Shown piece by piece: positions 27,755-50,311 of a stretch of DNA of 64,000 nucleotides. A program made the translations under genes and the position numbers. This stretch comes from Cytospora piceicola (Eukaryota > Ascomycota > Sordariomycetes > Diaporthales > Cytosporaceae). The notes under the pieces are model-generated. The model was not told where the DNA came from, did no database searches, and was given only the letters and a program-made list of their open reading frames with translations. The stretch covers positions 992,001 to 1,056,000 of the forward strand of contig JALQBC010000008.1 of the NCBI GenBank assembly GCA_023375675.1, in the 5' to 3' direction. The stretch's first letter is position 1, and every line of letters starts with the position of its first letter.

Positions 27755-28507
27755 ATGGCTGCTTTTTCCGTGGGTTTTCCCTACTCTTGCTAGTCAATTG
27801 GAGTTGGGAAACTGATACAGCACCTCGTACCGTAGCGACTGGTTCGTTTCCTGGCAAAGGATGGCCGTATCTACTACGGTGATGCCATCCTTCCCACAGG
27901 AGTTACAGACATTGGGAAGGCAAAACAGGCCAGGGTCATCACCGGTGACATTTTCGGGAAGCACGATGTGACCGACGAGGTCGCCGGTATCCGCACGCTT
28001 CTATCGCCTCTGGCACCGGAGCACGTCAGAACTGTGCGGTGCTTGGGATTGAACTACGCAAAGCATGCGCAGGAGGTTCGTCTCCAATGACCAAAGTGAC
28101 AGCCCTGGTCTTCGGAGATGGTAGACTCATGCGCTTATAGACAAACATGTCTGAGTCGAAGTACCCAATTTTGTTTGTAAGACTTCTCCGGCCCCTGAAC
28201 CATCCCCGGAAGGTATCGAAGAGAGTTGCCCTGACGTGTTGGAATAGTACAAACCCATGACCGCACTCGCTGGGCCTTTTGACCCGATTCCCATTCCACC
28301 AAAGGCACAAGAAGGCGAGGGTATTGATTACGAGTGCGAGCTTGTTGCTATCATCGGCAAAAAGTGCGTGGACGTACCCGAGTCCGAGGCTCTTGATTAC
28401 GTTCTCGGATACGCAGTCGGCAACGACGTCTCTCACCGGGACTAGCAGATTAAGAGAGGTGGTGGGCAGTGGTCGCTCGGGAAGGCTTTCGATTTATGCC
28501 TCGACAA
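27755..28507 (+). pseudogene. FAH-family (fumarylacetoacetate hydrolase domain) gene, 5' half, interrupted by the 18.8 kb element
   Basis: Exons: 27755-27769 (MAAFS), 27836-28075, 28141-28176, and 28248 onward. All introns are GT-AG and the joins stay in frame, giving MAAFSRLVRFLAKDGRIYYG..., VRCLGLNYAKHAQE, YKPMTALAGPF, YECELVAIIGKKC and GYAVGNDVSHRD. The paired Glu of YECELV and the Asp region fit the metal site of FAHD1/acylpyruvate-hydrolase-type enzymes. At 28443 the conserved Trp of HRDWQIKRGG is TAG (TGG to TAG, the change RIP makes). After QIKRGGGQWSLGKAFD the sequence leaves the family and enters the element. The missing 3' half resumes at ~47,287. Confidence 0.9.
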
Positions 28508-28640
28508 CGAGAGGCGATAATTTCCGATTTTAGTAGGTCTCAACTCCTGAAATAGTGTTTCTAAAGTATATTTTCGAGTTTAAAACCTGTTTCTAAAGTT
28601 TATCTCGAGTCTAATATATATATCGTAAGTTAAAACTTTA
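28508..28640 (+). repeat. Left terminal inverted repeat
   Basis: Matches the complement of 47,146-47,285. Shared words in the same order are CGAGAG, AGGTCT(C/T)AACTCCTGA, TATTTTCGAGTTTAA (28,569-28,583 against 47,199-47,213) and GTAAGTTAAAAC (28,625-28,636 against 47,146-47,157). Differences are mostly transitions. Weaker similarity continues inward to ~28,740. Confidence 0.85.
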
Positions 28641-28839
28641 TCTCTAGAGTTTGCCTTCGAGCCTTCGAGTTCTAATCGTAACTATTACTATCTTTATCTC
28701 GACCTCGATTTTCGAGTCTTAGTCTTCTAGCTTCTACGACGACCTTAAGTCCTAGCCTTCGAATCCTTATCGTCTAGCTTTTATAACGATCTTAAGTCCT
28801 AGCCTTCGAGTCTTAAGCTAATAAATAGTGTTTCTAGTA

Positions 28840-29345
28840 TATTTTATAACCGGCTTAAGCTAAGCCGAGTAAGCGTAGCTATACGGAAACAAACTAACTG
28901 TAATACCTTATAAACAGTCTAACTAGAAGATATATAAATAGTTACGATACCTTTTATAGTTGGCTTAAGCTATACCGAGTAAAAGGCGGTATAGAAAAAG
29001 TATATCGTATACTCGGTCCGCCCTGGAAAATCTACGTATAATACCTTTTACGGTTAGTCTGCCCCGGAAAATCTATATACGATACCTTTTACAGTTAGTC
29101 CGCCTTAAAAAATCTACAATAGCTACGATACCTTTTACAGCCGGTCTGCTATAAAGCATGTAACGTATAGCTATAATCCGGATAATCTATAGATAGCTAT
29201 AATACCTGTTACAGTCGGTTTAAACTATACCGAGTAAGAAAAGTAATACTAAACTATAATTTCTTATAAACAGTCTAGCCGGATAATTAATAAATAGCTA
29301 CGATATCTTTTACGATCGGTCTGCTATAAAACATATAACCGGTTA
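28840..29345 (+). repeat. Left subterminal repeat array
   Basis: Several ~70-bp units share GATACCTTTTACAG, GTCGGTCTGCTA and AGCTATACCGAGTAA words, at about 28,850, 28,960, 29,040, 29,085, 29,130, 29,200 and 29,310. The complement of the same unit is found at the other end of the element. Confidence 0.7.
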
Positions 29346-31081
29346 AGCTATTTATAATACCTTCTTTAAAACTAATTCGGCTTTTTTCGAATATTTCGCA
29401 GCTCCTATTTTTTATTACTCCTGTTTTTTATAGTTTTTTTAAGCTAGAGATAATCTTTTTATAGTCCGTTTAAAATATAGCTCTTTCGTAAACCTCCCGA
29501 ATTAAAGATAATATTTCTACAGTCTGTTTTAAAGTAAGATATTCTCTTTCGGCGGCTTTTCCGAATTAGAGATATTCTTTTTACAGTCTGTTCTGTTCCG
29601 AGTAAAACATTTCCTATCGGCAGGTTTTCCGAATTAAAAATAATCTTTTTATAATCTGTTTAAAGTAACTTCTTTAATAAGCAACATTCTGTTATATATA
29701 AAGATATAAATTTATAGCGCCTGAGCCGAAGTAAATTTAAATTTATATAGTTACTATTACTATAGAAATAGTTAAGCTAGCCTTTATAGTTAAAGGCTAA
29801 GCGCTATTAAACGTCTGCTCTTTACTACTTAGTAGGATTATAACTTAAGGTCTGTTATATATAGTTAATAACGTTTAAGCCTCGACGTATAATTAAGCTA
29901 AACGCTCTTTAACAGATAAGGCTTTATATACATTAGAATACCGTACTCCTTTAAAACACTTAATAAGATAACTTTAGATATTATATAAACAATAAACCAC
30001 TAATAATAAAAGCCGTACATCCCGCTCCCTTAATACTCGATAAGGAAACATCTAAAGGCACTATATAGCCTTAAATAAAAACTAAATATACCGCTTTAAT
30101 TAAGCAATATAAAGAAACTAGCCTAGGCTAGTTATAACTATAGTAGCCTATAGAAACTATAAAATAAAATTATAAAATACTACTACTATATACTTGCTTA
30201 CCTTTATAAAATAAGTAAGTATTTAAATAGTAAAAAGCCGCCCGGGATAAGGGATTCGGAGAAGTTAATTAAAGTCTTGGATAAAACAATTATAAACGTA
30301 TTAAATCTAGTTTCTAAGGTTAGCCTCTTAGTAACTAAATTTAGTACGATTCTATAGTTATTAAGTCTATAGCGTAAATTAAGGTAGTAGAAACAGAAAG
30401 GTATATACTTTAAATTAAAGAACTACTTACTTATCGATAATATATATCTTCTAAAACTACTATCCTTAATAGTAAAGTACTATAAAGTTAACCGCCTGCG
30501 ATATAATACTTCTAAAAGTAATAGTCTTAAAGAATATTATACATTTAGTATAATAGCTGCTATTAAAGTGTTTCGGGGTTAGCTGTCCGAGATGCCTAAT
30601 ATTAGCCTTATAGATAGAAAAACAAAGAAAGTTAAAATATTATTTAATAGTACAGATAACGTAACAGATAAGGGTATAATAAGAACTCTATATAGCTTAT
30701 ACCTTATATTACTAATATAGTTTCCCTTTTTAGATTATATATTTATCCTGCTAGTTTTAAACTAGTTGCGTATTACTTATTTCGTGTTATTTATCTATAT
30801 ATTACTTATCGTATATTTATTTATATATTACTTATCGATATATCTTTTACCTATCGCCGTTAAATATTCTTTCTGTTTTACTATTAAAGTTAATCCTGTC
30901 GTGTTTTATTATTTAATACTTATATCTGTCCGTATTTATCTATATCTATCCGTATCTATCCGTATTTATTTATATCGACTAGTTATAAGCCTTTATCGTA
31001 TTTTTATAGCCGATACTCTGATATTAACATTGTAAACTATCCTCGTTAATAATATCGAATAATAATATCCCCTGCTTTTAG
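29346..31081. other. Element interior, no traceable gene
   Basis: RIP-saturated AT-rich sequence. Short AAT- and TTTTAT-rich runs (29,390-29,700 has several AAACTCTTTT/TCCGAATTA repeats). No frame could be followed for more than ~60 codons. Confidence 0.4.
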
Positions 31082-31594
31082 TTAAAACCCGAGTACCTCG
31101 ATATCGAGGTCTTTTATACTATCTCTTACTCGGAAAAGAACTAGACCGATAAAGATATTATTAAGCCTTTAGACTAAAAGAGAAAGCAGGTTATAAATAC
31201 GGCTTTCGACTAGCTAGGCGTCGACCTATAAAACCCCCTTTATCGGAAGTTAAAGCGCAGTAAAGATAATATACGCTAATTTTACTTTACTTATATAGCC
31301 GATACATTAAAGAGCACAGCTATAGACTAGCTTACAGGTATAATCGGGTCCTATATTAACAGTATTAATAACCTTACCTCCGTCTTTATACTTAAAGAGC
31401 TAGCCTACAACCGTTACTATATTGTCTATAAGCTTCTAAATACTATCGAACAGGAAGACTTACTCGGCCTTAACGAGATTATAGCTATTTTAAAGGGTCG
31501 AGCTTCGGAAATATACGCTCCCGTGTCCTCTTACACCTTATACCTTACTAATAAGTTAGTATTTAATAATAACGACGTCGTTAAGTCGATTTAG
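31082..31594 (+). pseudogene. RIP-decayed frame A in the element (~170 codons)
   Basis: One frame runs across the region broken only by TAG/TAA codons of RIP type. Readable stretches include EYLDIEVFYTISYSEKN, SINNLTSVFILKELAYNRYY and LLNTIEQEDLLGLNEIIAIL. Codon structure and lack of frameshifts argue for an ancestral coding region, probably mostly helical. Family not recognised. Confidence 0.5.
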
Positions 31595-31790
31595 TTAAGT
31601 AGGAAATAAATCGAGTAGGGAATAGAAGGGGCTTTATTTAATGTTTTTTACTTAGTACTTTTTATCTAATAGCACGACGTCTATCTGTTTAAGTCGAATA
31701 GGTCGAGAAGGAGCGTTAAGTCAGTCGAGTAGGAAATAGAATAAAGCTTCGTTTAACGTTCTTACTTAGTGCTTTATATCTGCTTACTTA
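31590..31790. repeat. Two-copy ~110-bp tandem repeat in the element
   Basis: GAGTAGG(A)AATAGAA, GCTTTATTTAATGTT/GCTTCGTTTAACGTT and TTACTTAGT(A/G)CTTT words occur in the same order at ~31,610-31,665 and ~31,718-31,775. Confidence 0.6.
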
Positions 31791-33842
31791 TTTAGTTTAC
31801 CTATATGTGTCTTTTTAATTATATTAATTACTTTTAACTTTTAATAGTATAAGCTTAGATTAGAGAATATAGAGAAACACTAACTTTATAGAATTAACTA
31901 CCTTAAATTACCCTATATTTAATTGCTCTTTTAGTAGTACCCTTAAGTAGGCTATACCTTTACAACATTAGCTAGTTAGCTAAGGACGTAGATAACTACC
32001 CTTTATATACTGCCCTACCTCTTTAAGCCTTAACCTTTTATATACTACTACCTAAACCTTAAACCTAACGCCTTTTCTACCTTTTTAGCGGTTAGGTTGC
32101 TTAACGATAGTTTTATTAATACTTTTAAATATAGCTTCTACCGCGCCGCCGAGGCCTATACTTCTATAAGGCGTATAGCCTTAGACAACTTAATATAATA
32201 GTAGACAAGATAACTTTAAAAGGTAAAGACCTTTATAAACGACTTAACCCTTATATAAAAGGGATAGAGCAGCTATAGCTGTGCGACTTTACCTAAAATA
32301 CCCGACAGGTAGTAAAACTAGTTAAGGCCGATAGCGACGGCCGGCGTAAATTAAACCGGCAGCTTAGATTCAAACGAAGGGAAGGTATACTACTACGGTT
32401 GTAACGTAGGTAGGCTGTTAGCTATACCTTTAGATTTTTTTAACACTTAGATTTAAAATAGTACCTATTCGAGTATAGTTAAAGCCGCGTACTAGTAACA
32501 TATAAGCTTAAAGTTATATACGTATATAAATACTAAAGACTTACCTAAAATAAATAAGGCAGCTTATAATTAAAGTACGCCGACAGTACCTATAGCTTAC
32601 CTCGACGTAGTAGTAAAGCGTAGTCGTAGTATTTAATACGGCTTTAGTTATTATAGCACGGTTTTTAAGTAATATAGTAAAGGTTAATATAAAGTAAGTT
32701 ATAGTAAAGATAACTCCTGTTGTATTTAATAAACGGGCTATACTCGATAAGGTTATCTAACTAAATCCCGCTTTATAGCTATTTAGCTAAAAACTATACT
32801 TACGCCTTAAACAATAAAGTAATATAGTCCCTCTTTTTATAAGACTTAGTAATATTAGTATATACGTACCTTTACTAACTATATAACAGATCTTACTATA
32901 TACGTCGCGGTTATTTTAGAATACGCTGTCGGCTTAAAATTCTAAGCTAAAACATCGAAAGACGTCGTTACCTATTCGGAGCTTAAGATAATATATATAT
33001 TAGTATACTTGTGTAATACGCCTTATAAGTTTATAAGCTTCGAAACGCGTTATTTAAACCTTTCCCTCGCGTTATATATAAGCTAAAAAACTTCTTTCTA
33101 CTAGCTATAGAATTTAGTAGACCGCTTAATCGAATATACCGGTATAGCTTTAGAGTAATTACTACGGTAGTTTTATCGCCTTTTTAAGGTATAAGAATTA
33201 AAATTTAGGTTTTCGTTTATAACTTTAAGAGTATAGACTAAAGAGTTTAACAGGCTACCGATAAGGATTCGGTTAAAACTTATAAGCTAGATCTTAGTTA
33301 GTACCTGCTATAAGGCTTATAATAACAGCTCGATAATAATAAATATATAGCCTATAGCTTTACTACGGACGTTTTTCTAGTACTATATACGTATATAACG
33401 CTATAAGTTCTATAGCCTTGAAAACGTCTTTTAATAAGGTATACCGTTAGGCTGCTGCTTATAGCACTTTAAAGTAGTACTATTATCGGCTATAATAGGT
33501 AAAATAACGTAAGGTTTAGTATAATACCTTACTTATATAGCTAGTAGTAGTACTTTAAAGCTTTATTACCTAATATCTCGACACGTCTGAAATCTTTTAT
33601 AACACGGTCTTTAATTATAAAGATCGAGTATACTAATATACGCTTGTATAGTTAGTTTAGAAAAAGACATAGCTATTAAGTCGTTATAACGGATCGAGTC
33701 TAAAAGTTAAGCTAAAGACTTCTCTTAGCCTCGAAAGTATATACTATAGTAAGTATCTGTAACTTAAACACCTTTCTTAACCTATTTATTAAGCTAACTA
33801 TTAATTTCATTAAGAATACCGAAAACTTTATTAAGGAAACTA
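31791..33842. other. Element interior, weak coding traces
   Basis: RIP-saturated. On the minus strand ~33,190-33,450 a frame can be followed for about 90 codons (ADNSTTLKCYKQ, SLLNSLVYTLKVINENLNF) with many RIP-type stops; too weak to call separately. Confidence 0.3.
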
Positions 33843-34232
33843 CTAGTTGTAAAAATAATAGCTAAAAATACTATCTACGGCTTAATCTTTCCTACGCAGC
33901 CCTAAACTAGCACTCTTTAATATATTAACTATATCTGTTATCGTAATATAAACCTTATATAACCTCGCTTTCGCCTTTATAACTACCTTCTCTATAACCT
34001 CGGTCTCCTGCTCCGTATATATACTATAGAATTCGGTAACCCTTAAGGCTTTTAAGATCGACGTAATAACATTTATAAGGTCGCGTTCCCGTCCTTTAAT
34101 TTCGGTCTTATAGGCTTCGATAAACTACTTATATCGTTCGAAGATAAGGGCCCTCTTATTAAGGTGTTTATACCTAGCCTCGGTATAACGCTCCTTCTTA
34201 TAAACCTGCCGTTTTACAGTCGGACACGACAT
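33843..34232 (-). pseudogene. RIP-decayed frame E in the element (130 codons)
   Basis: An ATG at 34232 and a frame to the TAG at 33845-33843, with only two internal RIP-type stops. It reads MSCPTVKRQVYKKERYTEAR, then ALIFERYK and TEIKGRERDLINVITSILKA: strongly basic and helical. A second frame immediately upstream is also open (AEDRTRRFNTFESYIAEREY), so the true 5' end may lie further up with a frameshift or intron between. Family not recognised. Confidence 0.45.
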
Positions 34233-34963
34233 ATTCTCTTTCGGCGATATAAGATTCGAAGGTATTAAAGCGTCGCGTTCTGTCTTCGGCGCTAAACGTA
34301 TTATCTAATACGCTTAACGTATTTAACGTAAAGCTCGAGTACTCGAGGTAGTAGTCCCGGATGAGTTTTATAAGGTAAATAAGGATATTAAAAGTATCGT
34401 TTAAATTATTACGTAAGTATTTACAGATAGCCTATATTTAAGCCGAGCTGTTTATAATATATTTAGCTATTACTCTCGGCGGACTAGGTTTTATTCTTAA
34501 AGACTATTAGTCGGTATAGTAAAGATAAATACTAATTAACTTATATAAACGTAAAAGCGTAGATGGGTTATTAAGAACTAGTTATATAGTTAAAATTCGA
34601 TATTATAGTAAAAGTAAGACTAAAGGTTAAGAGTAAAACGTACTCTGCGATCTTATAGTAAATACTACCTTAACCTTAGCCGATAAGACCGTTATCGATA
34701 TCAGGATAATTAACTAAACTAACTTCGATCTATTATATAGTCGATTAATTTAGTCGTTTAAACGCCTTAACCCTACTTATTAAGAAACCGCCTTATACCT
34801 CTTAATCTACGATTACAGCGATAGCCCTTTATTAATAAAGTAGCTCTTACGCTTTTAACGCCAGCTAAAACGCTAGTGTAAAAGTATACTAATAAAAGCC
34901 TTATAATAACGACTACGACTAACAGAGTAGCCGAAAATACTTAGTACGTAAACGTATTTATAA

Positions 34964-36433
34964 ATGAATACTACCGTGTCCGAGATAACTAAAAACTAGC
35001 TGTTAAAAACTAGAATAAAATAATACTCCTTTTACTTAAAGCTAGCTTTAAGCTCGCTCGCTATAATTATTTTATAGCCCGACCTCCTTACTAATATAAC
35101 TTTCATGCTCTATTATATATACCCTTTTACCTTTAGTCGCGTATCAGGCGTATATTGTCTAAAGAGTAAATATATTGCCGACGAGGTAAGAGTTTACTAT
35201 TATTACTTATAATATATAACCGTCTACTAACTTAAGCTAAGTAAGTTCTACCGCACTTTACTACCCTTTCTCGTACCTACACTTTCGACTACCTAAAATA
35301 CTCCCTTAGTAAACCTTTAAACCCCCGCCGAAGCGTATATTAACTATTAAGGTACCGATCTCGCGGTATACTATAAGAAGCGTATTCTCTCCGAGGCCGA
35401 TACCGACTTAAGTAAATAGATAAAAAAAAAGCTCCTGCCCTACGCCGCTATATATAATAATAGTATACTATAAGAACTGTTTAAGGCGGCGTATAAAGAG
35501 GTAGGTAAAGCTTCGGAGCTTAACCTCAAGCCGATACGTATACTTGCCCGGTACTAGTACGGCTTAAAGGTTAAAAAGAAAGCTATTAAAGCGTAAATTC
35601 TCGAAAGTATTATTCGATATATTACGAAACGACTATAGCTTATTATAGCCCTTATAACGACGCCCGCTTTCGAAAAGGATACGCCGTCTTACTTCGAGAT
35701 CTTTTACCCTTAGTAATTTAATAATATCTTTAACTTTACTAAACCCGGTACTACTACCTACTATAGAACAGCTATCTTCGACGTCCTTTTAATTACAGCC
35801 CCCTTTCGTAATATAAGCTTCGATAACCTGTTAACCCCTCCCGGCTAATAAACACGCTAAACTTACGCCGATATATCCTTATACGTCTCGGATATAACCG
35901 ACTTACCTTCCGTCGGTTTTACCCTTTACCTCGGCCTTAGCCGTAGCCGTAGCTACTCTATCCTAGCTATTACAGGTTAAAGAACTATATAAGACGGCTT
36001 CGCTCGGTATTCGAAGCCTTGTAAGTAAGAGTAAAAGAACTTTAAAAACCTAGTATCGTTTATTTGTAATAACCTGTCGTAAGCTTAAAACTTACTAGTA
36101 GACTTTATAAAGGTCGTTAATACTAAATACCCCGATGTTACTACTATTCTCCTAGATAAAAGCGGCTATACCGAAAAGGCTATATAAGTCCTTTTATAAA
36201 GTATGTCGGACGTTAATAAACAGACCCTTATAATAAAAATCTATACCGCCGGGGCCTATTAAACCGCCTTAGACTAGCTAAACGTCCTCTTTAAAATTAT
36301 ATAGAATACAGACCGCGTAAGTAAAACGATAAACAAGGTAGTAAATAAAATAAGATATTTTAATATTCTATTTTTAAGCGATAATAAAGAAGCTTCCGAT
36401 AACGTTAAGGAAGATAACCTAATAAAAACTTAA
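34964..36433 (+). pseudogene. RIP-decayed frame B in the element (490 codons)
   Basis: A single frame from ATG 34964 to TAA 36431-36433, without frameshift and with stops only of TAG/TAA type. Readable parts include MNTTVSEITKN, FTFSRVSGVYCLKSKYIADE, IEIFYP-like and TPAFEKDTPSYFEIFYP, SDITDLPSVGFTLYLGLSRS, NLLVDFIKVVNTKYPDVTTI and DVNKQTLIIKIYTAG. It looks like a soluble protein with alternating alpha/beta patterns. I do not recognise the family. The ATG and stop may both be RIP products; boundaries are tentative. Confidence 0.6.
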
Positions 36434-37354
36434 TTTAAAGTTCTAGGTATTTAATTACTTAACTAAATACCTAAAACCTTAAAACGGTCTAAATACTTAA
36501 CGCCTCTACCTTACTAATCCTCTTCCCTTTAAAAGAAAATAAACTCTAACCTCGCATATAACTAATAATACGACTCTTCTACTTTAGTATAACTTATTTA
36601 GTATCCTGTTCTGTTTATATATATATTAAGGCGTATAGTAGTATTAGTTAATTTATTAGTATTAGAGATATATCTAATCTAGTAAACCGATTACAATAAC
36701 GGTTATATAGGTATAGTACTTAAAAAGTTTCGTAACGTTAATACCTTTTAAACTTAGCGTAAGATATAAATATCTGCAGATATCTGTAGTACGGTAGGTT
36801 TAAGATTAGTATAGATAATATAAGTAAGAAAAAGATATCCTATTTACGATTATTTCTAATATAAAATATAGCTATCTCTTTTCGTAATATACTAACCTAA
36901 TCAGTCTACTTTTAAAGTTATTATTTACTATCTTAACTATATAACCTTTAGGAATTCATCTCTACCTAGGTTACTTATTATTTTAAAGGTTACCTACTAT
37001 TTAAACTAACTCGTCTCGCCCTCTTAGTATAATCTTATATAGCAGCTTCTATACTAGAAATATAGTAGCGGCTTAGGCTTTAAACAGACTTTAAAGTTAT
37101 ACTATCGACCTTTAGCCCTTTCTACTATCAGGCTTATAGCTAAAGCCCTTTTAAAACTCCTCTCTTACCTATAAATACCTAACACCGGAAGCCGTAATTA
37201 GTAACCTGCCTATACCTAGTCTTAATAACCCGTTTTATACCCGAAGACGTAACTCTAAACACCTAAGACTTATAGCCCTTTATATTAAATTATAATTAAA
37301 TTTAACTAAAAACTAAGTATAATAAAATCGATCTTTAAAATATACACTATAATT
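36434..37354. other. Element interior, nothing traceable
   Basis: RIP-saturated spacer between frames B and F. No readable frame found. Confidence 0.4.
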
Positions 37355-37654
37355 TCGGAAATAATAATATATTCGGTAACTTTTAACTACTAATATACTA
37401 TAACTATATTACTAAATAAGAGCTAAACCTTATACCGGATCCTATACTAGATCTTATACTAAATCCTACTCTTAACCCTACACCCGACCCTATATGGAAT
37501 TAGTTATTCGATCGTTTAGTTAAAATGTCCGAGGCTCTTACTAATATATCCTATAGTATTAGTATTATAAAATTTAACGCCTTAGTTATTAGCCGAAAGG
37601 CCTAGTATAGAGGAAATAAGCTCGTTACTTAAAGAACCTTAAACATAATGTTTT
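37355..37654 (+). pseudogene. RIP-decayed frame F in the element (~100 codons)
   Basis: The frame reads NNNIFGNFQ-like, then a short degenerate repeat of Pro-Asp/Asn units (PDPILDLILNPTLNPTPDPI), then LFDRLVKMSEALTNISYSIS. Stops are TAG/TAA of RIP type. It resembles the N-terminal low-complexity plus coiled-coil part of a longer protein. Family not recognised. Confidence 0.4.
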
Positions 37655-40202
37655 AAGTTAGGAGTTTAACCTTAAATTTTATTATAAGCTATAAACGTTT
37701 ATTATATGTACTAAAAAAATTTAAAGAGCCTAAAAGCCCCTGGTATAGTATATAGATATAGCTACAGCTATTAATTAAGCGACTGCCTACTTTAATATAC
37801 TTACCGATAGCAGTCTTAGGTAATATTAAATAATACCTTTAGCGGACAGTTATACTGTCTTATATTCGATAAATAGAAAAGAAAAGAAAAAGAAGAATAA
37901 AGTATAATAAATAATATTAGCGTTAACCGTAAAGTAAAAAGGGCTAGTCGTAAAGTAAAGAGAGCAGAGAAAGTATATAAGCTAGTTAGTGCGTTTACGC
38001 CTTTTTAACTTTAGTCCGTAACTCTTTAACTTCCGTAGCTTTTTAACTTCCGTTTACAGTTTTAACCTCCGTCTACGCTCTTACTTACCGCCGACTATCC
38101 CCTTATTTTCTCGATAATTTTCTAAATAAAGCGTTTAGTAAAGGGCTTTCGGTTATTATAAGGTAAACCGCGGCTCGAAACCTTATACTTACGCGACGTC
38201 TATAACCTTATATCCTTATACCTCCGTTTTAGGTTATTCTTTAAGATAAGTAAGACTTGCTTTTATATCGTTATGCCGGGTAAAACCCCTTTATTATATA
38301 GTAAAAGCCGTTTAATTAGCCTCGTATACTCCCTTGTCTTCTTCTTTTTAACGATATATAGGATACGCCTTTTATTTAACTCCGCTTATAATATCTTTAA
38401 TATTTACGAAAAGATATCCTCTTTAAACTCAGGCTTAGCTTTAACCTTAAAACTTACCGACTTATCTTTTTATAGAAGCGTACGACAAGTCTTAGTACAG
38501 GTTAAAGCTATTAAAGCGGTATTTAGTATATTATTTAGGTTAATAGGGTTTTATATAGTGTTTAAAAGGTAAAGGTATAACTATATAGTACTTACTATCG
38601 TCTAGTTCGGTTAAACGGCTAAGACTAAAATAGCCGTTATAAATAAGGTAGCCGTTATAAATAAAGCAGCCGTAAACAGAGTAGCCGGGAAAGCGAAACT
38701 CTATATTATATTATTTACGATTATATACTTAGCTACCTTCTTTTACTTCTTCTCTTATAAGAGTTTATACTTAAACAGAACCTTTACTAGGTTTATAGGT
38801 AAAGTCTACTTAAATACCGACAGGACGTATACCTTATTAATCTAAAGAGATAGCTTTATATTTCGTATAATTAGCTAGGCTAGCTATTCGAACGACGTAT
38901 TTAATAGTATTTAGATATTCTTATCTTATATATAAGTATATATACCTTAATTATTTATATAGATAATATTAAAAACCTTCGAGAGTAGTACTTAATACGC
39001 TTTACCGTCTTACTATAAGCTATACCCTGCTAACGCGTCGGTAATAAACAGGTAAGCGATAAGCAGCTTACGCTACTATATCTCCTACCCCCGGTCTATC
39101 GAGACTTTACGATTTACGATATACTACCGGAGCTTCGGTACTATTATATTAAAAAGCCCTTTAAAGCCGGCGGAAGGCTAAAGCCGGTTTATAACGTTAG
39201 GCCGGTCGTGTTCTTATAGCTCCGTTATTATATATATACTAACGAAGTATTTCTTATCTGTAAATATAAAGTCTAAGGTTTTCTTTTAAAGTCTTTTAAT
39301 AAAGAGGCCGATAAGTAAGAGAAGCTTACCCCTTAAAGGGTTATTTTACAGGAGACTATATTTTTAAAGGGCAAAAAAGACTAATAGCTATCTAAAGTTA
39401 CTTTAGTTTAAAATACCTCGTTCGTTAACGTAGTAACGAAGTCTTTTTATACCTTCCGCGTCTATAAACTTTAAAAGCTCTTATATAAAGATTTTCTGTT
39501 TAGTAATCGGCTTATCGTTAAAGGCTATAGTTATCTAGTAATAATATAGCTAACGGCTGTAAGGTATAAGATAATGTAGGATTTATCTGTAAAGTAAGTA
39601 ACGATATATTACTCCTCCTTTTGTTAGGTATGAGTTTTACTAAAATACTAATAAATAGTCTGCTTAAGCCCCGCTTTAAAGGCTAATACTACTTCTAAGA
39701 TATACTTTTTATCTCTTATTTTAATTAAACCTCTAGCTTTAGTCTATCGAATACTATATTATAGCTAGCTCCTTATAGCTAATAGCCTCTTTTAGTTTTA
39801 TTATAGCTTCTAAACACGATTCGAAAGCTCTACTACTATCGATTATTACCTGCTTATAGCCTTTTATTAATTGTTAAAGGTAACTACGGCGTAGCTAATA
39901 GCTTAGTTTAGATATATTGTATATTAAGGGAGTATTACTTTACGTAGTCCGACTAATTTAATTAGTATACTAATTTATATCAGAGATCCGGTCCTTATAT
40001 AGCCTAAGTATACTTATTTAACTTTATATATCGACTTTATATAATTTCAGATTTCTAAGCTAAGCTTCGCTAATAGTTAGTCTTTAGTTATTACTACTAT
40101 TTAACTATCGTTAGTATTTAGCTATCTTTAGTCTTTATCTCTTTTATTACTCGACTTTTATTATTCTTTAACTCTTATTACTTCTCGACTCTTATTACCC
40201 TT
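37655..40202. other. Element interior with scattered open stretches
   Basis: RIP-saturated. A 99-codon ORF at 38,273-38,572 survives without a stop and is hydrophobic (SLVYSLVFFFLTIYRIRLLF). Open stretches in the same frame continue to ~39,400. Other frames are nearly as open, so no gene is called. Confidence 0.35.
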
Positions 40203-43200
40203 CGACTTTTAGCAGCCCTCTATCTTATTATAAGTAAGCTAAACAGACTTTCTTACTAAAACAGGAGGTAAAGGAAGCTATAATTCCGGCAGGCCTTTAA
40301 GCTAACTACCTAGTATACCGACTAAGTTCTTTATCTTAGTAATATATAAAAGTAAAACGACATCTTTACCGATAACGAGTCTTAAGCTTCCGACTCCGAG
40401 GCTTATAAGCTTAAAGAATTATTTAAACTATACGTTTAAAGAAATTACGTAATCGTGTTAAAGGCGAAACGTACTACGAAACTAAACGATAAGGCGTTCC
40501 CGGTTACTTTAGAAGATCTGATCGAGGTAAGGTTAATAAGTAATTATCTTCTTAAGCACTTTAAAAAAGATAAGAAATATATTCCCGGCCTTCCCTTAAA
40601 AGCCTATAGCGATTATATTTAAAATGTTATCGATAGCTACCGGCACTAATTCTATAGTATTACGCTCTATAACATTACTTTAGTACCGAACATCGCCGCT
40701 GCGCCGAACGCTAGTTTAATATTAGATCTCTTTATATATTCCCTAAACTACCTTATAAGGTAGAATATAACTTTCTAAAGGTTACTATTCTCGCCCTCTG
40801 TAAAAGCTTTTACTCCGTTCGCCGTTCGTAACTAAAAGTTATTTTATTATATAGCTACTAATCTAGTAATAATAATAGAATTCCTTAATATAGTAAAAGG
40901 AATCGACTTATTTATTCTGGATTTTATAATCGCCGTATATATTAAAAGGCTCGACTAAAACACCGAAATACCTTAAGATAAACGCCTTTATAAGCTTTAG
41001 TAGCTTACTATAGCCGTTAAGAATCTCGTAGTACTTCGCCGTCTTTTAGAATTTTACAGCTACTATTAGATACGGCATTAGAGATAGGCTAAGATATCGG
41101 ATAAGAACCTTAAGATAGTCTTTAAAAGTATATTTATTAAAAAGAAAACTCGAATTATTAAATAAATACTTATAAAAGTAAAGCGGGATAACACCCCCTT
41201 CTTAAACATTATATTTAAAAATACTACGTTACTTAATAAAGTATCGGACTAAAAGACGGTAAAAGTTATAAAGAGCTATCTTAATATTTTTAAAAGCTAC
41301 AGACTTAATAAAACGGAATTTCGGGCGTATATATTTCTTAACGGCTATAATCCGATTTATTCCTTTTATATATCGTCCCGCGACCGGCTTAAGGAACTTA
41401 GTTATACGATAGGTATACTATATACGATTATCTCCTCGACTTCGCTATACTAGGAATATAACCGATTAATAAAAGAGTACAGAGTTTATAAGCCTTAGCT
41501 AAAAACGGATTAAAAGCCGCTTCTATATATAATTATTTACGACGTTGTATAACGAGTCGCTTAAACGATCTATAATATTTAAGTACGCCGACTAAGTAAA
41601 AACTGTTATTCGGAAGTATTTATACTAAAAGTCTAGTAATTTATTAAAAACCGCTAAGGCTTCTTAATTATACCGTAGGCTTATAGCCTTTTCCGCTACG
41701 TCTTTACTACGTAAAGACCTTTTAACTTAACTATATTTTCAGGTTATTAGACTAATAAGTATAAAGGATATTTTTACCTACCGATAGAAGGGCCTGTATC
41801 GCTCTTAAATCCGCTAAACCTAGTCGTAAGCTTTTATAATAAATTTCGTAGCTTTACTTAAGATAGCAGTATTACTAATAAAATTATAGGCCTTTTCGAC
41901 CCTTTATTTTAGTTTACCCTTTTTACTTGCTTCTTTTAAATTCCTATAAGTAGTCCGTTATAAAAGCTTAACCTTACCTTCGGTATAAAACGATAAGTCT
42001 TGCTTTCGCCGGGAGAAGTACTTAATATATAAGCTTCCGATTCTTTATTTCCGAACCTCGACTTTTTAAAGCCTTTATACGTAAAGCTTATAGACAGTAA
42101 TAACTAGCTTTTTAAATACCGGTATCCGTACTTTAACTACCCGGCGACTACTAACCTCGATACCGGTTAATACTTTTATTATTTTAACCGAAAGTATAGT
42201 AGTTAGCTATACTAATACTAGCTTTATATAAGAAGATTTTATTCTTAGAAGGCTATAGATATATACTTTACGATAAATTCTTATCTCGATATAAAGAGGG
42301 TAGTTAATAACGCTCGGGATTTCTTTTAAAGGTATCTCCGTTATAGCTATATCGACTATACTATAAGGCTAAAGAGGTTCCGCGACTAAAATAGATTAGA
42401 TAAATATATTTAATTTATATATACGCTGTTAAAAGAAAAGGAACCTCTTAAGTTTATATACGAATACGGTTATTACTAGACGAAGTATATATTCTAACTT
42501 AGTATATACTAAGCTACTCTGTTTTATTAACGTTATATAAAAGACCGTAGTAAGCCTAATTAAGGTCTATCGAAAAAGTATTAATATTAGGCGTGTTATT
42601 TCGAGGCGAATTAGAAAGAAAAGCAGATAAGGCATATAAATTTAAACTAATATAAAAGGGTAGTCTTTTATAATATACTTCCGGCCGGCTAGTTAAAAAT
42701 AATCGATAAAGACGTAATAAAATAATAGAAGGTCGGTAACAGAAAGATACTAAAAAGCGTCGCTATATAGAATAAACTTATCGTTAATTAAGACGATATC
42801 CTATAGCAAAGAGCTAAAAATAATACCTAAACGAAAAGCGAAATAACTTATAAACTATATAGATTAAGCTTCTTAAGCAGGAAGGAGTATAAGGTATACT
42901 ATCGAACTGCCTAGTATAAGTATAAGCACCTAAAAACAGCACTCTCCTTATAGATATATAGCTATTAGCACTATAACCTTAATATATATATCTAACTATA
43001 TATAAGGATATATATAAAAGAGGAGCACGTCGACTTAGTCGATTTTAGCACTTAGGTAAAAAAACTAAGTAATAGTTTTCTGAAAATCCTCTACGACGAA
43101 AAGGCTCTCTTTATCGACTTAAAGATAAATATATATTTATTATATTTTTATCGTGCCTATCGGGTAAGCTATCTCTATAGGTATAGATAAGGATTTACGT

Positions 43201-43478
43201 ATAAAATAAACTGTAAGATTCTAAACTTTATCGATAAAAACCCCTCGAAAGCGTATAAGAAAGTCCGCTAGTTCTTAAAAGACAGGGTTATATTAAACGA
43301 GAAGGTAGCAGATAAGTAAAATATATTAAACAGGAATATATTAGGTAAGAATATACTAAGTAAGAATAAGGCAGAATAATAAAACGGGGCTATTATAAAA
43401 TACTTTTTTAAGCGCGCCTATTCTCTATACTTAGCCCTATTAGCCCTATCGGACAGGCCTTCGAAACGCCGACGCTAA
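40203..43478 (+). pseudogene. RIP-decayed frame C in the element, longest (~1,090 codons)
   Basis: One reading frame can be followed from about 40,203 to 43,478 with no frameshift. Every interruption is TAG or TAA, convertible to Gln or Trp by undoing RIP. Readable stretches include LKELFKLYVQRNYVIVLKAK, TLEDLIEVRLISNYLLKHFK, NIAAAPNASLILDLFIYSLN, VAVKNLVVLRRLLEFYSYY-like, SNSFLKILYDEKALFIDLKI and a C-terminal SDRPSKRRR basic tail suggestive of nuclear localisation. A TAA at 43,377 lies before the tail and may itself be a RIP product. The size suits a transposase or other mobility protein, but I see no diagnostic catalytic motif; the role is inferred only from being the largest frame. Confidence 0.6.
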
Positions 43479-43786
43479 TCATTAAGTATCGAGCTAAGTA
43501 CTTAAAGCTCGTTATAAACAGTATCGCTTACTATAAGACCTAACAGGAAACGTAATCTATAATCGTCCTTAGAACGTACGATTCCCTATTATCCTACTCT
43601 TACTAAAAAGTCTGTAATTACTAACGGAAAATATATACTCTAAGTCTTACACGATATCCTTACAGGATCTATACGATATCCCTACGAAATCCTATACGAA
43701 ATCCTATATGAAAACCGACCGGTATTAAAAGAAAAGAGGTATATAAATATATAGGTATAGTAGTATAATAAAAAAAGGAAATTACT
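43479..43786. other. Element interior with short degenerate repeats
   Basis: At ~43,650-43,710 a short repeated word (TACGATATC, TACGAAATCC) occurs five times. No frame traced. Confidence 0.4.
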
Positions 43787-44410
43787 TATTAGATATCGTT
43801 TCTTTAGTCTTTTATTAACCTATTTATTATTCTAATAGTAACGTTAATATCTTACTAACCGTATCCTCGTCTTATCCTATTATATAAGTAAGTTTATCCT
43901 TCGCGTTATATAAGTCGCCTTATACCTTATAGACTATATCGTATAGCTTCTAACGTTCGTTATATAAACGGTTAGCCTTTACCTAAGCTAGTACCCGCTT
44001 TCTTTAGCTTAAATTCTTAGCTGCTATCAGCTCTTCCTTCTCCTCCTTTTCCTCCTCCTCTTCCTTTAAGTAAGTATAACGGCTGTTTATATCGTCGATA
44101 TTATATAACGTTAAAAGCTAGCCTTTTTTAAAGTCTTCGATAAGCTCCTTTATATCGTCGTTGTCGAGGAGGCCGGGGACTTATACTACGTTAATTATAA
44201 CGTAAACGCCTATAGAGCCGATTCCGACGACTGTTATAACTTTATTAAGAATTATACGGAGCTTAGCCGTTAGGCCGTATACAGCTATAGCTTTCGTAAT
44301 AATAGCCGCTAAGCACTTTAATTTTTCTAGTAAGTATAAGAAGACGTCGGACTTACTAAGCTCCGAGCTAGACGATATAATAGGTATAGCTTTTAAGGTG
44401 TTATAAGTAC
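43787..44410 (-). pseudogene. RIP-decayed frame D: membrane segment plus coiled coil (~205 codons)
   Basis: A minus-strand frame can be followed throughout with only RIP-type stops. In order: SSSSELSKSDVFLYLLEKLK, a hydrophobic stretch VITVVGIGSIGVYVIINVV that looks like a membrane span, an acidic DNDDIKELIEDFKKG, then a strongly charged coiled coil (YLKEEEEEKEEKEELIAAKN) and QVKANRLYNERQKLYDIVYK. Its 3' end faces the end of frame C (convergent). Family not recognised. Confidence 0.5.
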
Positions 44411-46629
44411 GTTATCTATCTATATTAAGCTAAGGGATATTAGTTACCTTAATCCGGTTAAGCTTACTACTAAGCTTAAAATATATCTTCTGTTATTATA
44501 TATAGTTTAAATTAATCGGGTTACTAATAATAATAAGATTACAGATAAAAAATAGAGATAGTCTATAGAGATAGAAGATAAAGAACGCTATTTAGGTTTT
44601 AAAGTACCGAATAGCGAAGCGTCTCCGATCGATTATATACTTACTTTCTTATTAAAAGCCGTTTAAGCAGTATTATAATAAAAAAAACCCGACTTATAAG
44701 TAAAGCTAAACCTAGCTAATAGATATATGTTACTATACAGGTTTTAGCCGTTAGCTAAGTAAAGAGAACCCTATTAGCTGCCTTTACCTATAGAATTCGT
44801 TTTAGGCAGCTTTATATAAGATATATATTTTAGGTATATACTTAGTTAATAAAGATTAGTATTTTAAATCTGTTTTTCCGGGTCTGCTTACTATTTAGCC
44901 TATAGCAGTAAGGTAATATTCTAAAAGAATAAAGAACTTTAATCTAGGTATATACAGTATATTATTATACTAGACTAGTAGCTTTTAAAGCAAGATATTT
45001 CGTTTATAAGCTGAAAAATTAATAAAGTATATAGGTATAAGAAGATTCTGTTATATTAGACAGACGTTTATACTGTACTTTCGCTTACTTAAAATCTTAG
45101 GATTCTCTTAAGCTTTTTATTATAATCTTAAGCTCTTTTTACCTTTTAATTAAGAATATAATAACTAATTAAATAATAATTAAATAACCTATCTCTTTAT
45201 AACTTACCCCTTAATAACTAAGAATAACTACTATCCGCCTTACCGTTTAAAACCTCGGAAAGGCCTGTATATTCTATAAGTTAATATTACTTCCCTTTCC
45301 TCTTAATTATCCTTACTATAAATTAAGTACTTACGCTATTAAATAGTCGGCTCGGGACTTTATAGAATGTTAAATAAGGCTATCTTTAAACTCGAAGACG
45401 TTTATAACGTTATTATAAAGCTATTTATCTTAGGCTTTAACACTAAGAGAATTATCCTTAAAGACGCTACTAGCCGTATACGAAGCTTTATTTTTAAGGT
45501 ACGCTAGAACGCCGTATAAGCTAAGATTAAGCTATACTTAAAACGTAGTTAAAGAGTAGACGTAGAAATAACCTTTATATCTAATAAACACGACACGTTC
45601 GACCTTAAGATCGGCGGCGGTATTAATCGTACTATAGTTTACGGTCGTGTAAAGTTCGCAGTCACTAAGCTAGCCGAAAGCTAAAAGATTTATAACACCT
45701 CTTTATTTAATATCCTATAACCCGGATCCTCTCGCTTTAAACGTCGTACCGCTTATAAAGAGGAAGAGGAGGACGAAGATAAGAGTCGACAGATTATAAA
45801 AAATAAGGATAATAAGATATAAGGATTTAGTTTTAGTTTATTTATTTCGTTTTAGTTTATTAGAAAGATAAGCAGAAAAAGAATAAAACACTAGCTTTTA
45901 AAAGAATAGCACTATTATTTATTATTAGGTTCTAGAAAAAATCACTACTATTACTTATTAGGTTTTAAGAATTAGCTAAAGCGTTTATAACTTTGCTTAA
46001 TATTTATAAAGACGGGATAAAGATAGATTTTAATAGCTTAATATCTAGATATACCTAAAAGCTCGGTATCGTGTTATAAAAACTGAATAGAATATATCCC
46101 GTACTTAATTCTCCGTTCTCTCCGTTCTTTATATTCCTTTATTATTAACTAAGTAAATTAGGGATCTCTTTATTAATCTTAATTTAGTATTTTAGGTTAC
46201 CTTTTAGTAGTAAACTAACGATTAACTTATAATATAACTTTCCGTTCTAGCAGGTAGCCTTTATTATACTTATATAGTCCTAAGCCTAATCATTTTAACT
46301 TCCGGCCTTAAACCGAACTATTATCGTAAGCCTATAATATTACGTTCTGCTAGCCTTTATTAACCGCTTTATTAACGCCGTTAGCGCCTTTATTCGCGCC
46401 TTTATTCGCGCCTTCGTTAATAGCTCTATTAAGCCTTCCGCCGTAACAGACCTTATAATATATAACTTAAACAGGTATTTATAAAAGCTTAAGACAGACG
46501 ATTACCTAATAGCGGTAGGCCTACGATAAGTTAGTATATATAAGTATAAGCTAGGCCCGGGTTATATACCTCGTTATACTCCGGAGAAGTAGGCTCGCCG
46601 AAGTCGTTAAATATACGCTAATATTATAA
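44411..46629. other. Element interior, right part, nothing firmly traceable
   Basis: RIP-saturated. One moderately open plus-strand stretch at ~45,360-45,780 contains a K/E-rich end (KEEEDEDKSRQIIK) but earlier codons are ambiguous. No gene called. Confidence 0.35.
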
Positions 46630-47000
46630 CGCAACGTAGATTAAGCGGTTAAAAGTATCGACAGCTAAGTCGTTATATATAACCGTAAAAGGTATCGTAA
46701 CTATTACCTAAGCAGTTATATATTCTATAATAAACCGACCGTAAAGGTATTATAGCTTCCTGTATCGCTTTTCCTACTCGGTATAGCCTAAGCCGGCAGT
46801 AAAAAGCATTATAATATACGTTACGTATTCCGTAGCGGACCGACTATAAGAGGTATTATAGCCTAGTATCGCTTTTCCTACTCGGTATAGCCCGGACCGA
46901 CCGTAACAGACCGGCCGTAAAAGGTATCGTAGCTTAATATCGCCTTTCCTACTCGGTATAACTTAAACCGACCGTAGCAGACCGACTATAAGATACACTA
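46630..47000 (-). repeat. Right subterminal repeat array (mirror of the left array)
   Basis: About four to five units share GTAAAAGGTATCGTAGC, CGCTTTTCCTACTCGGTATA and CCGACCGTA words at ~46,680, 46,740, 46,840, 46,910 and 46,965. Their complement (ATACCGAGTA, GATACCTTTTAC) is the left array's unit, so the arrays face each other across the element. Confidence 0.7.
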
Positions 47001-47145
47001 GAAATACTACCTATACGGCTACGGTTAGATAATCAGTAGTCTATTTAACGTAATAGAGTTAGACGATTAAGACTCGAAGGTCGAGATAGTTACGATTAAG
47101 ACTTAAAAACTAATTCGAAAGTCGAGGATATACTTTAAAGACATA

Positions 47146-47285
47146 GTTTTAACTTACAATATATATATCACACTCGAAAATACACTCTGAAAACAGTCTT
47201 AAACTCGAAAATACACTCTAAAACCCCGTATGAGATAGTGTCTCAGGAGTTAAGACCTGCCGAAAATGGGAAAAAATCGCTCTCG
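47146..47285 (-). repeat. Right terminal inverted repeat
   Basis: Inverted partner of 28,508-28,640. This copy keeps a few more TG/CA dinucleotides (for example GTGTATTTTCGAGTGTG in complement), so it appears slightly less mutated than the left copy. Internal short tandem duplication: the CACTCGAAAATACACTCT block occurs twice (47,171 and 47,203 areas). Confidence 0.85.
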
Positions 47286-47286
47286 G

Positions 47287-47731
47287 TTAACAAAGGGGCT
47301 CCGTTCGGCCCAGGTATCGTGAGCAGCTCGCTGATCAAGGACCCTCAAGCGCTGAGAATCTCCACGAAGCTCAATGGCAAGACCGTTCAGGTTGGTGGCA
47401 GCATTCTTTGTTCACGAACGCCTCGAGCTAACAATCTCGTAGGACTCTACCACGGAAGACATGATTTTCAATGTTGCCAAGACAATTGCCTTCCTGAGCC
47501 AAGGCACAACACTATTGCCAGGAGACCTTCTCTTCACTGGGACGTAAGTTATGATCCATATCCCCGAGGGAGACGAGGTGCTGAACATCATTCCCTAGCC
47601 CCTCTGGAGTTGGTATGGGGATGAGGCCACAGGTATGGCTAAAGGATCGTGACGTTGTGGAGGTTAGCCTCGAGGGCATCGGAAGCTGCGTCAACACAGT
47701 CGAGTTTAGCAGCCTGCAGTCAAAGCTATAA
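47287..47731 (+). pseudogene. FAH-family gene, 3' half (separated from its 5' half by the element)
   Basis: Resumes as NKGAPFGPGIVSSSLIKDPQ, exactly the family continuation of ...WSLGKAFD at 28,493. Exons: to 47390, 47443-47543, 47599-47731, with introns GTTGGT...TCGTAG and GTAAGT...CCTAG. Joins give [65 protein letters not shown] and IGSCVNTVEF, ending at TAA 47731. No stop or frameshift in this half, so decay since insertion is slight. Before insertion the gene would have been an ordinary ~300-residue FAHD1-like enzyme; it cannot be expressed as one protein now. Confidence 0.9.
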
Positions 47732-48050
47732 GTTGACTGTGAGCTCAAAAGCGACGCTATTTGAGAGCAAATGCCGTCCATGACCCAAGCGCAGGAAAGG
47801 TTTATCTGATTATGCTCCTGTCACATGAGGCAGGCGAACTCTCTAGAAGCCTCATATTCACATTACCTCCGCAGTCTTGTTTTCGAAGGGGTGTGCATTA
47901 CCGTCCTGTTCCCCATCGTCATTACATTGGGAGTATACTGGCTGGAGCCTTGTTCCTGCCTCCTTGCTGCGAGGAACAAGGAGTGGAACTGTAGGTTAGT
48001 CTCCCATACCATATGAGGCATGTAGATCCTAGAAACCAGACCAGCCCTTT
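47732..48050. other. Intergenic between convergent FAH 3' half and RBR ligase
   Basis: No supported gene. A short ORF at 47,825-48,016 has one hydrophobic stretch but no start context or family; treated as chance. Confidence 0.5.
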
Positions 48051-50311
48051 CTAGTGTGGCTGATTATTTTCAACCGACGGTACAGGGTCGCCAACTTCCT
48101 GCACCACAGTCGGATCCCACCTCCTGTCATCGTCATCCACGATCCCCTCCTCAATCTCAGCAACTAGGTGCTCCTCCAGCAACCTGGCCCGTTCCGCTAC
48201 GACCAGCTCGTACCAGCGGAGCTCAGATCTGACCTTGACCTGAAGTTCCTGCTGCTGAACACTGAAAGACTCCAGGATCCGCGCCGTCTTGACCTGTATG
48301 GGCTTCTCCTCGATGGCCTGTTCGTCGTCGTCCGTCCAGAAGAACTGCTTGAGTTGTTCATCGCGATACTGCGGCCAGTGTTCCTTGGCTGCGCCGTCTT
48401 GAGAATTACCATTCTCGGGCTGGGTCCCAACCGGCTCGTCGATGGTGTTCTCAGACGCGTCCTGAAAAAGCTCGGCCTCGTACTGCTCCCACAGCTCTTT
48501 CTCTTTCTCTTCCAGCTTGATCTTGCTCGCACGTCGCAAATGGTTCATCTTGGCCACGTACTTGAACACAAGACCCTGCTCAGCTGTCTGGATTTGCAGA
48601 AGAAGCTCCCGCCGGCAGCGCTCGTGCTGATCCTTCAATACGCCTCTCTGATACTCATTCACCTCTCTCAGCAACGCCATCAAACCAGCATATTTAGTCG
48701 TAAACAGAACCTTCCGCCGGGTCTCCTTCGCCAGCCGTGCCCTTTCCAGCTTCTCTGACATCTCCGCCTCCATCCTCTCCTCCTCCATCCTCTCCTCCTC
48801 CATCCTCTCCTCCTCCTCCTTCCGCCTCTCCGCGTTCCGCCTGGCGCGTTGCTTGATCTCGTCCAGTTGCTTCTTCGTGCACCAGCACCACATTACCCCG
48901 CCGCACACCATACATACAAGATGGCCGCACCGGCACATGACGTTGGGGCACCCGGCGCGGTGCTCGATCATCGTGTGGCACCGGGGGCACCGCCTCCACC
49001 CCTCCTGGGCCGCAAGCCGCTGCACGAGCTCCATGTCCTTGTTCTTGGCGCACTGCACCGCGTCCGTGTGCGCAGCCTGCCGGCAGTCCATGCAGGTCAG
49101 GTGTCTGGACTTGCACCTGGCGCGGCGGAAGGGCGTGTTGGCTCTGTCGGAGGGGACGAAGAGCCCGCAGTCGGGTGTGGGGCAGTAGTATCGGGCTTGG
49201 ATTGGTGTCGAGTACTCTCGGCGTTTCTGCTTGTATTTCACGGAGAGGGCCCCGGATATGTTTCTGAGACAGGTCTTCTGGTCGACAGGGTTCATACAGC
49301 ATTTTGGCGGCCATTGGGCTTCACTCTCCAGCGCGTGCACGATGAGACGTTGGAAGCATGGTTTGCAATAGCTGTGACAACGCAACTTGACGAGTTTCCT
49401 TGATTTAAAGTTGTCGAAACAGGAAATACACTCCCTACAACGAAAAGTCAGCAAATAGACCGAGACAATACACAGGAGGTATGTTGGGATACAAACGCAG
49501 TCTCTTGACTCAGGTGGAGAGCTTGCTTTGTTATCTGGAGTCTCGACCTGAGGTCTGGATAATGCAATTCCCCTGTGGAACGATGATGAAAAAGGCCAAG
49601 ATACTGGTCTGTCTCACTGAGCCTTCGGAAAAGTTCCCTGAGAAGTTTCCACTTCTTGGGGTTGGAAGAAGAGGAGTTTGTGTTGGCTGTATGTGACCCG
49701 TTCTTTCGAGGTTCGAAGCTCGTCGTCTCCAGTGCAAAGTCGGTTTCATTCTCAGTTACTGGAGATGGCTTCATGGTAGTGGGCAAGGAAATTATGCCTT
49801 CACTCGGCGGAGGTGTATGGATTAGGCGGGTATCCAATGGCTCAGACGAGGAATGAGAGCCATCTGTCGTAGTTGGTTTGGATAGTACGCGATCAACCGC
49901 TTTACCCGTAACGACGACCCGGACCTTGTTTTTCGCTCGTTCGCCATTGTCTTCTGACTTCCACCTCTCCTCTTCCTGCAGGCGCAAGTGTACTTCCCTT
50001 TCAGCAGTAATCTGAGATAGAATGTTCTCGACCGACGCCCTGATGATACTATCCAGGGTCTCCGGAACGACCTGACTGAGTTCTTTGATAGCCTCTGGCA
50101 GCCCATATTTGGCGAGATTGACTTGCTGGCCGTCTTCGGATGGGGAAGACTCGTTGCCCTTGTTCAATGATTCTCTATCCTCGGACCTTATAGAGCGAGT
50201 CGTCGAGACTGTCGAGGTTATCCTGGACTGCCCACTTGGCTCCGTCATCGCATGTGCGGATTGATCAGTTGAAGGGAGAACAGCATTTGGACGGTCACGT
50301 TCCTGAGCCAT
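48051..50311 (-). CDS. RBR-type (RING-IBR-RING) E3 ubiquitin ligase
   Basis: Exons are 50311-49548 and 49434-48051. The intron at 49547-49435 (GTCGAG...TGTAG, with CTGAC branch-like site) joins ELHYPDLR to ECISCFDNF in frame, giving 715 residues. Residues 1-250 are disordered (MAQERDRPNAVLPST...). RING1 follows: CISCFDNF, RCHSYCKPC, PPKCC. The IBR has YYCPTPDCGLFV, CKSRHLTCMDC and HTDAVQC. RING2 is CPRCHTMIEHRAGCPNVMC then CGHLVCMVCGG; the Cys of the GCPNVMC motif aligns with the thioester cysteine of RBR ligases. A long E/R/K coiled coil with a MEEER repeat follows. The family transfers ubiquitin through a RING/HECT hybrid mechanism. Substrate unknown. The GTCGAG donor is weak, but it is the only one giving the right phase. 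Confidence 0.82.

Follow-up and report, generated by a model that had tools for sequence, protein, structure and literature searches.

The window analysed here is a 64,000-nucleotide stretch of the Cytospora piceicola genome (G000:C79:992001-1056000; genome 43.65 Mb in 99 contigs). Within it a FAH-family gene (best match 86% identity; Cytospora chrysosperma protein 84%) is cut in two by an 18.8 kb foreign block, the window element, which belongs to a dispersed family of multigene elements damaged by repeat-induced point mutation (RIP). In 1-kb bins lying wholly inside or outside the block (two mixed bins excluded), the guanine plus cytosine (GC) content is 26-38% inside and 45-67% outside, and the composite RIP index is +1.2 to +2.0 inside and -0.96 to +0.16 outside. 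The locus is laid out as follows.

27836..28498, plus strand: 5' part of the FAH-family gene, with an in-frame TAG at 28443-28445; exon limits approximate, from FAH homologs
28499..47296 (right end approximate), unstranded: whole element, 18.8 kb, RIP-mutated, sole copy found of subfamily iv; from 19 end pairs, FAH homologs and RIP index
28499..28800, plus strand: A-type end, CCTCGACAACGAGAGGCGATAATTTCCGATTTT.., with terminal inverted repeat; from end comparisons
28700..29700, plus strand: subterminal repeats, partly inverted copies of about 46730-46990
47050..47296, minus strand: B-type end, inward CCTTTGTTAACCGAGAGCGATTTTTTCCC.., with terminal inverted repeat; from end comparisons
47297..47732, plus strand: 3' part of the FAH-family gene; exon limits approximate, from FAH homologs

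An earlier note on this DNA had recognised the interrupted gene and the inverted ends, which align at 28557-28650 and 47132-47224 (81% identity, E 4e-13), and both observations stand. Its boundaries at 28508 and 47285 are each about 10 bp off: the element begins with CCTC at 28499 and its right limit lies at about 47296. The residues NKG, at which FAH had been thought to resume, are the element's own terminus (..AACAAAGG) and lie outside FAH, the reading of which picks up again at the W codon of W-A-P-F-G-P. D-[G/A]-W-A-P is found at the break point in 118 of the 120 FAH homologs listed, the remaining two having been missed or wrongly matched by the search pattern. With GAT TTA TG before the element and GG GCT CCG after it, a clean junction restores W-A-P, and the homologs thus imply a clean insertion. 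The in-frame TAG, about 55 bp outside the element, stands where homologs have W (SHRDW) and may be a RIP-type change that spilled over the element boundary.

DNA searches of the genome with the left end gave at least 66 matches (40 of 86 candidate places scored), 32 of the 66 starting at query base 1, and searches with the right end at least 53 (40 of 88 scored). Left-end and right-end matches pair up in opposite orientation. Twenty such pairs, selected beforehand for matching the ends, were tried, and both ends were located in 19 of them, the window included; the pair left out of the end tables (C47:1195182) has a B end that was missed by the pattern and a variant end visible by eye. In the 19 pairs the A end is CCTCGACAWCGAGAGG.., while the B end, read inward, is CCCTTGTYAACCGAGAGCG.. 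or the variant CCCTGTCAAGCGAGAGT... The window limits given above follow from these ends. Paired inverted ends with dispersed copies characterise DNA transposons with terminal inverted repeats in general, and both are seen here (19 pairs; collinear copies).

The flanks show a weak target preference. Position -2 on the left is T in 17 of the 19 copies (P 1e-9, uncorrected) and position -1 is G or A in all 19; on the right, numbered from the end of the conserved GGG, position +2 is C in 14 (P 2e-4, uncorrected). The exact target duplication that the earlier note had proposed to look for did not appear: no consistent target-site duplication (TSD) of 2 bp or more was found across the 19 copies scanned at 2-12 bp, a 1 bp duplication being possible. 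The best of 634 settings gave z 3.2, with 39% identity against 28% in shuffled flanks, and was rejected; C28, C36 and C5 each show a 4-5 base flank match, but its offset is not repeated in the other copies. The lack of a TSD, the asymmetric ends and a short palindrome at the A end would also suit a rolling-circle element of Helitron or Helentron type with asymmetric terminal inverted repeats. This is very improbable, as the termini do not fit the Helitron rule TC..CTRR and both genome matches to PF14214 (Helitron_like_N), one with 17 stops, lie outside the elements.

Between the ends of the window element lie decayed frames, which the earlier note had rightly singled out and which are genuine genes, because transversions, which RIP does not make, concentrate at one codon phase. 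In comparisons of the window with other types this peak runs across genes B and C and block F, and less evenly across A and D. The window and the long copies have in common a core set that includes at least A, B, C, D and F.

30788..31495, plus strand (provisional): core block E, protein-like
31985..33535, minus strand favoured: core gene A, about 500 residues, with internal frame changes that are possibly introns
33900..34500, unstranded: further coding block with a codon-phase signal
35069..36568, plus strand: core gene B, about 500 residues, 48 genomic loci
38101..39582, unstranded: core block D, about 500 residues, with a codon-phase signal
40419..43280, plus strand: core gene C, 954 residues through 65 TAA or TAG codons, 48 copies; candidate recombinase or transposase
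45310..45810, plus strand (provisional): core block F, about 170 residues, near the B end

Gene C has 48 genomic copies including the window, with 65 to 86 stop codons apiece, TAA or TAG in nearly every case; these copies, together with the 19 end pairs, supply the further examples that the earlier note had asked for, and the 47 outside the window dispose of an assembly artefact. The 66 matches to gene B fall into 48 loci and, by identity to the copy on C9 (C9, C12, C14, C24, C28, C51 and the like are contig labels for copies, distinct from gene C), into five classes: 12 loci of type i, 8 of type ii, 9 of type iii, the window alone as type iv and 18 of type v. A gene C partner lies within 19 kb of the gene B locus in 48 of 48 cases. 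Lengths were measured for 19 of the 48 loci (types i, ii, iii and the window). Type i elements are 39.8-41.8 kb long in 6 of 8 cases, with two longer (53.9 and 102.1 kb), type ii 45.1-48.9 kb in 3 of 4, with one longer (61.6 kb), and type iii 34.7-37.5 kb in 6 of 6. None of the 19 is shorter than the window copy, and the long subfamilies measured carry 16-30 kb of extra sequence with no assigned function.

Five copies besides the window were read at full length (C14, C12, C9, C28 and C24). C14 is collinear with C12 and C9 over its whole length, at 81-87% identity for the most part, and C28 aligns with C24, mostly at 80-86%. Across types only some blocks can be aligned, with order and orientation changed. 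The enlarged copy on C51 holds Starship-type genes. The block is AT-rich and RIP-mutated, and two enlarged copies (C47 and C90) hold nested reverse transcriptases, as might be expected if it were a patchwork of nested retrotransposons, or a misassembly, with inverted ends arising by chance. Such an origin is scarcely credible: copies at separate locations are collinear for about 35-40 kb, 19 copies share the same pair of ends, and no reverse transcriptase domain was found in the window copy or in almost the whole of the C14 copy. An identity as a long terminal repeat (LTR) retrotransposon or a long interspersed nuclear element was likewise rejected, since none of the 58 genome matches to RVT_1 (53 with three or more stops) lies in the window element. 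At G000:C51:118812-220892 the two members of an A/B end pair stand 102 kb apart. Between them lie a DUF3435 captain damaged by RIP (181911-182709) and, at 146323-147192, a DUF3723 gene, which may be the remains of a dead Starship nested within a type-i element.

RIP makes transitions only, never transversions, and transversions therefore preserve the history that preceded it. Within subfamilies the differences are nearly all transitions (10908 transitions and 594 transversions for C14 with C12 and C9; 4658 and 247 for C28 with C24), and many 500-bp bins have no transversion, which indicates that copies of these types were still nearly alike at the onset of RIP. Conversion of C to T went furthest at CpA (533 changed, 209 kept) and was least complete at CpC (434 and 2215). 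Among type-i copies the transversion difference is 2.7-3.9% in the gene C stretch and 0.36-0.46% elsewhere.

Genes B and C were compared by transversions in 18 elements over 900 of the roughly 2850 bases of gene C, with C1, C43 and C5 left out. For gene B the difference is 0.13% within type i, 0.08% within type ii and 0.12% within type iii, whereas types i and ii differ by 6.2%, i and iii by 9.3%, and ii and iii by 7.7%. The corresponding values for gene C, in the same order, are 3.4, 2.9 and 3.75% within types and 3.5, 3.8 and 3.8% between them. The window copy averages about 15-16% from other elements in both genes. With the window left out (17 elements), the two distance matrices barely agree (Mantel r 0.15, p 0.08). 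The gene C of C36, a type-i element, is closest to that of the type-iii copy C28 (1.1%). All four gametes occur in 1268 of 2628 site pairs of gene C, nearly half, which marks it as a recombined mosaic. Gene C alleles thus recombine across subfamilies, whereas gene B is clonal. Between C9 and C14 transversion clusters alternate with clean stretches from about 35.8 to 38.5 kb, and transversions are also elevated over the 0.8 kb at the start of the B end. The possibility that gene C is under diversifying selection was considered and rejected: its transversions by codon position within subfamilies (423/314/694) resemble those of gene B between subfamilies (2351/1998/4694), with no excess of amino-acid change seen, and the pattern looks more like exchange of ordinary alleles.

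Dispersed whole units with specific ends and preferred flanks thus spread in near-clonal bursts and died by RIP. We read them as a new lineage of giant multigene DNA transposons, with the window copy as a short, diverged member that killed FAH, and put the probability of this reading at roughly 55%.

Searches for known families agree with the earlier note in that no diagnostic domain of any class was recognised. Six-frame Pfam scans gave no match at E 0.5 or better in the whole window element and none over the initial 20 kb of C14; the sole rows for the next 20 kb of C14 (Decapeptide, E 0.17) and for 18 kb of C28 (Imm30, E 0.099) were treated as chance. Pfam searches with the core blocks, and with gene C from six copies, gave nothing. 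No Pfam transposase, DDE included, was found in the scans of the window, C14 or C28, RIP damage limiting their sensitivity. The earlier description as a giant cargo-bearing DNA element holds for the kind of element, a giant one with terminal inverted repeats; the cargo is not borne out, as what recurs is a set of core genes, with no host-type cargo recognised.

Size, an ascomycete host, imperfect inverted repeats, the lack of a clear TSD and a target preference are all shared with Starships, and these elements could be a divergent Starship lineage in which gene C is a captain too diverged or too RIP-damaged to be recognised. The shuffling of gene C resembles the captain/element discordance and possible captain swapping discussed for Starships (PMC12134995). 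We regard this origin as unlikely. PF11917 (DUF3435) has two genome matches, both at C51:181911-182709 and none in the gene C copies, in line with the earlier note, although the same X-masked scan recovers that RIP-damaged captain at E 7e-10. DUF3723 was likewise detected in the genome despite 24 and 25 stops. PF00589 (Phage_integrase) gave nothing in the genome and is detected in all 14 control genomes. A captain as the leading 5' gene was not found, nor any captain candidate besides gene C, and no consistent short direct target repeat of 2-12 bp occurs in the 19 copies, 1 bp being possible.

The range of 18.8-49 kb, the inverted ends and the core genes that change order and orientation between subfamilies would also fit an endogenous DNA virus or Polinton-like element, in which a virus whose genome bears terminal repeats would have integrated repeatedly. 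Polintons have a retroviral-type integrase and a 6-bp TSD. Here no polymerase, integrase, packaging ATPase or capsid had a credible Pfam match in the window copy and nearly all of the 40 kb C14 copy, no TSD of 2 bp or more is present, and no relative of gene C occurs in IMG/VR. PF03175 (DNA_pol_B_2) was found nowhere in the genome, which proves little as it was also silent in every control genome. On this evidence a viral origin is distinctly improbable.

In a fuller form, which we put forward tentatively and at somewhat less than even odds, the giant-transposon reading describes a superfamily of 19-49 kb multigene elements that belong neither to Starships, Polintons or Helitrons nor to any DDE group, without target duplication, whose undescribed recombinase is gene C, the mobilising gene recombining freely between element lineages that share a genome while the rest is clonal. 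On the giant-transposon reading as such, a unit runs from an A-type to a B-type end with the core genes between and moved whole, near-identical units spreading in bursts. Insertion was clean and at a weakly preferred target (T-R before the element, C two bases into the right flank), lacking any TSD of 2 bp or more; RIP afterwards destroyed every copy found. Integration would be carried out by an element-encoded recombinase, most likely gene C, through flush or site-specific exchange. The exchange of gene C could mean that the mobilising gene is traded among units, or that other copies serve as templates when gaps or breaks close to the ends are repaired.

Several points weigh against the giant-transposon reading. 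No element protein has an assigned function, and the role given to gene C is a guess from its genetics. Gene C is also not the 5'-most inward gene, which also counts against a Starship captain: it reads outward, 1.1-1.6 kb from the A end, in the five long copies read and is internal in the window. Profile searches with genes C and B against 5.8 billion proteins (the 7996 candidates sharing most words scored for each) gave 0 matches. Profile searches of the PDB were of no use, one returning nothing and the other a single match at E 0.75 that was ignored, and AlphaFold2 single-sequence folds of C and B from the window copy reached a pLDDT of 34.5 and 35.3, nothing usable. RIP damage reduces search sensitivity throughout. 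Block F of C28 (L032, about 32.0-32.7 kb from the start) is locally diverged from that of the otherwise near-identical type-iii C24, so that gene C may not be the sole exchanged gene. The window copy is fully RIP-mutated yet has no sister of its own subfamily, and RIP requires duplicate sequence; the sister may have been lost or left unassembled. Clean insertion is supported by a single gene, FAH, and a 1-bp duplication of G may be present.

As far as we know, the giant transposons on record for ascomycetes are mainly Starships. If there is a second giant class unrelated to them, it would supply a new recombinase and would explain some of the AT-rich RIP blocks that are entered in genome papers only as repeats. 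The transversion record of clonal bursts with one freely recombining gene makes the family a concrete case on which the idea of captain swapping can be tested. The available text of a five-species Valsa paper gives AT-rich regions and LTR elements as major repeat content (PMC9911072), and such a class is not mentioned in the available parts of a giant-transposon review (PMC6431247) or of a Verticillium Starship paper (PMC12289983). No description of this element family was found in the titles and abstract beginnings of the open-access literature, subscription papers and preprints being outside the search.

Elsewhere in the window, a short tandem repeat array lies at 6960-7181, with related inverted copies 41 kb away at 48759-48831, inside the frame of an IBR-domain protein (48051-49613). 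At 7375-8011 about 470 bp are duplicated in direct orientation, the two copies overlapping and 80% identical.

Among known systems, Helitrons and Helentrons resemble the family in their asymmetric ends and lack of a TSD, and differ in that no Rep domain is found in these elements and the ends misfit the termini rule given above. Kyakuja-Dileera-Zisupton (KDZ) and other large DNA transposons share terminal inverted repeats and one long conserved protein. KDZ elements make an 8 bp TSD, in contrast to the family described here, and their domain (PF18758) was not found in the genome, which proves little as no control genome gave it either. Polintons, or Mavericks, and Polinton-like viruses are alike in having tens of kilobases, inverted ends and several core genes; here neither their polymerase B, integrase, ATPase and capsid nor their protease was recognised, and the TSD is lacking. 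Starships have a DUF3435 captain, whereas no DUF3435 was found in these elements; the candidate gene here does not read inward from the 5' end, and the present family differs further in having 48 copies, subfamilies near-clonal where tested, and no recognised cargo. With Starships it shares its size, a Pezizomycotina host, inverted repeats (present in some Starships), a target preference and one gene that is discordant with the rest.

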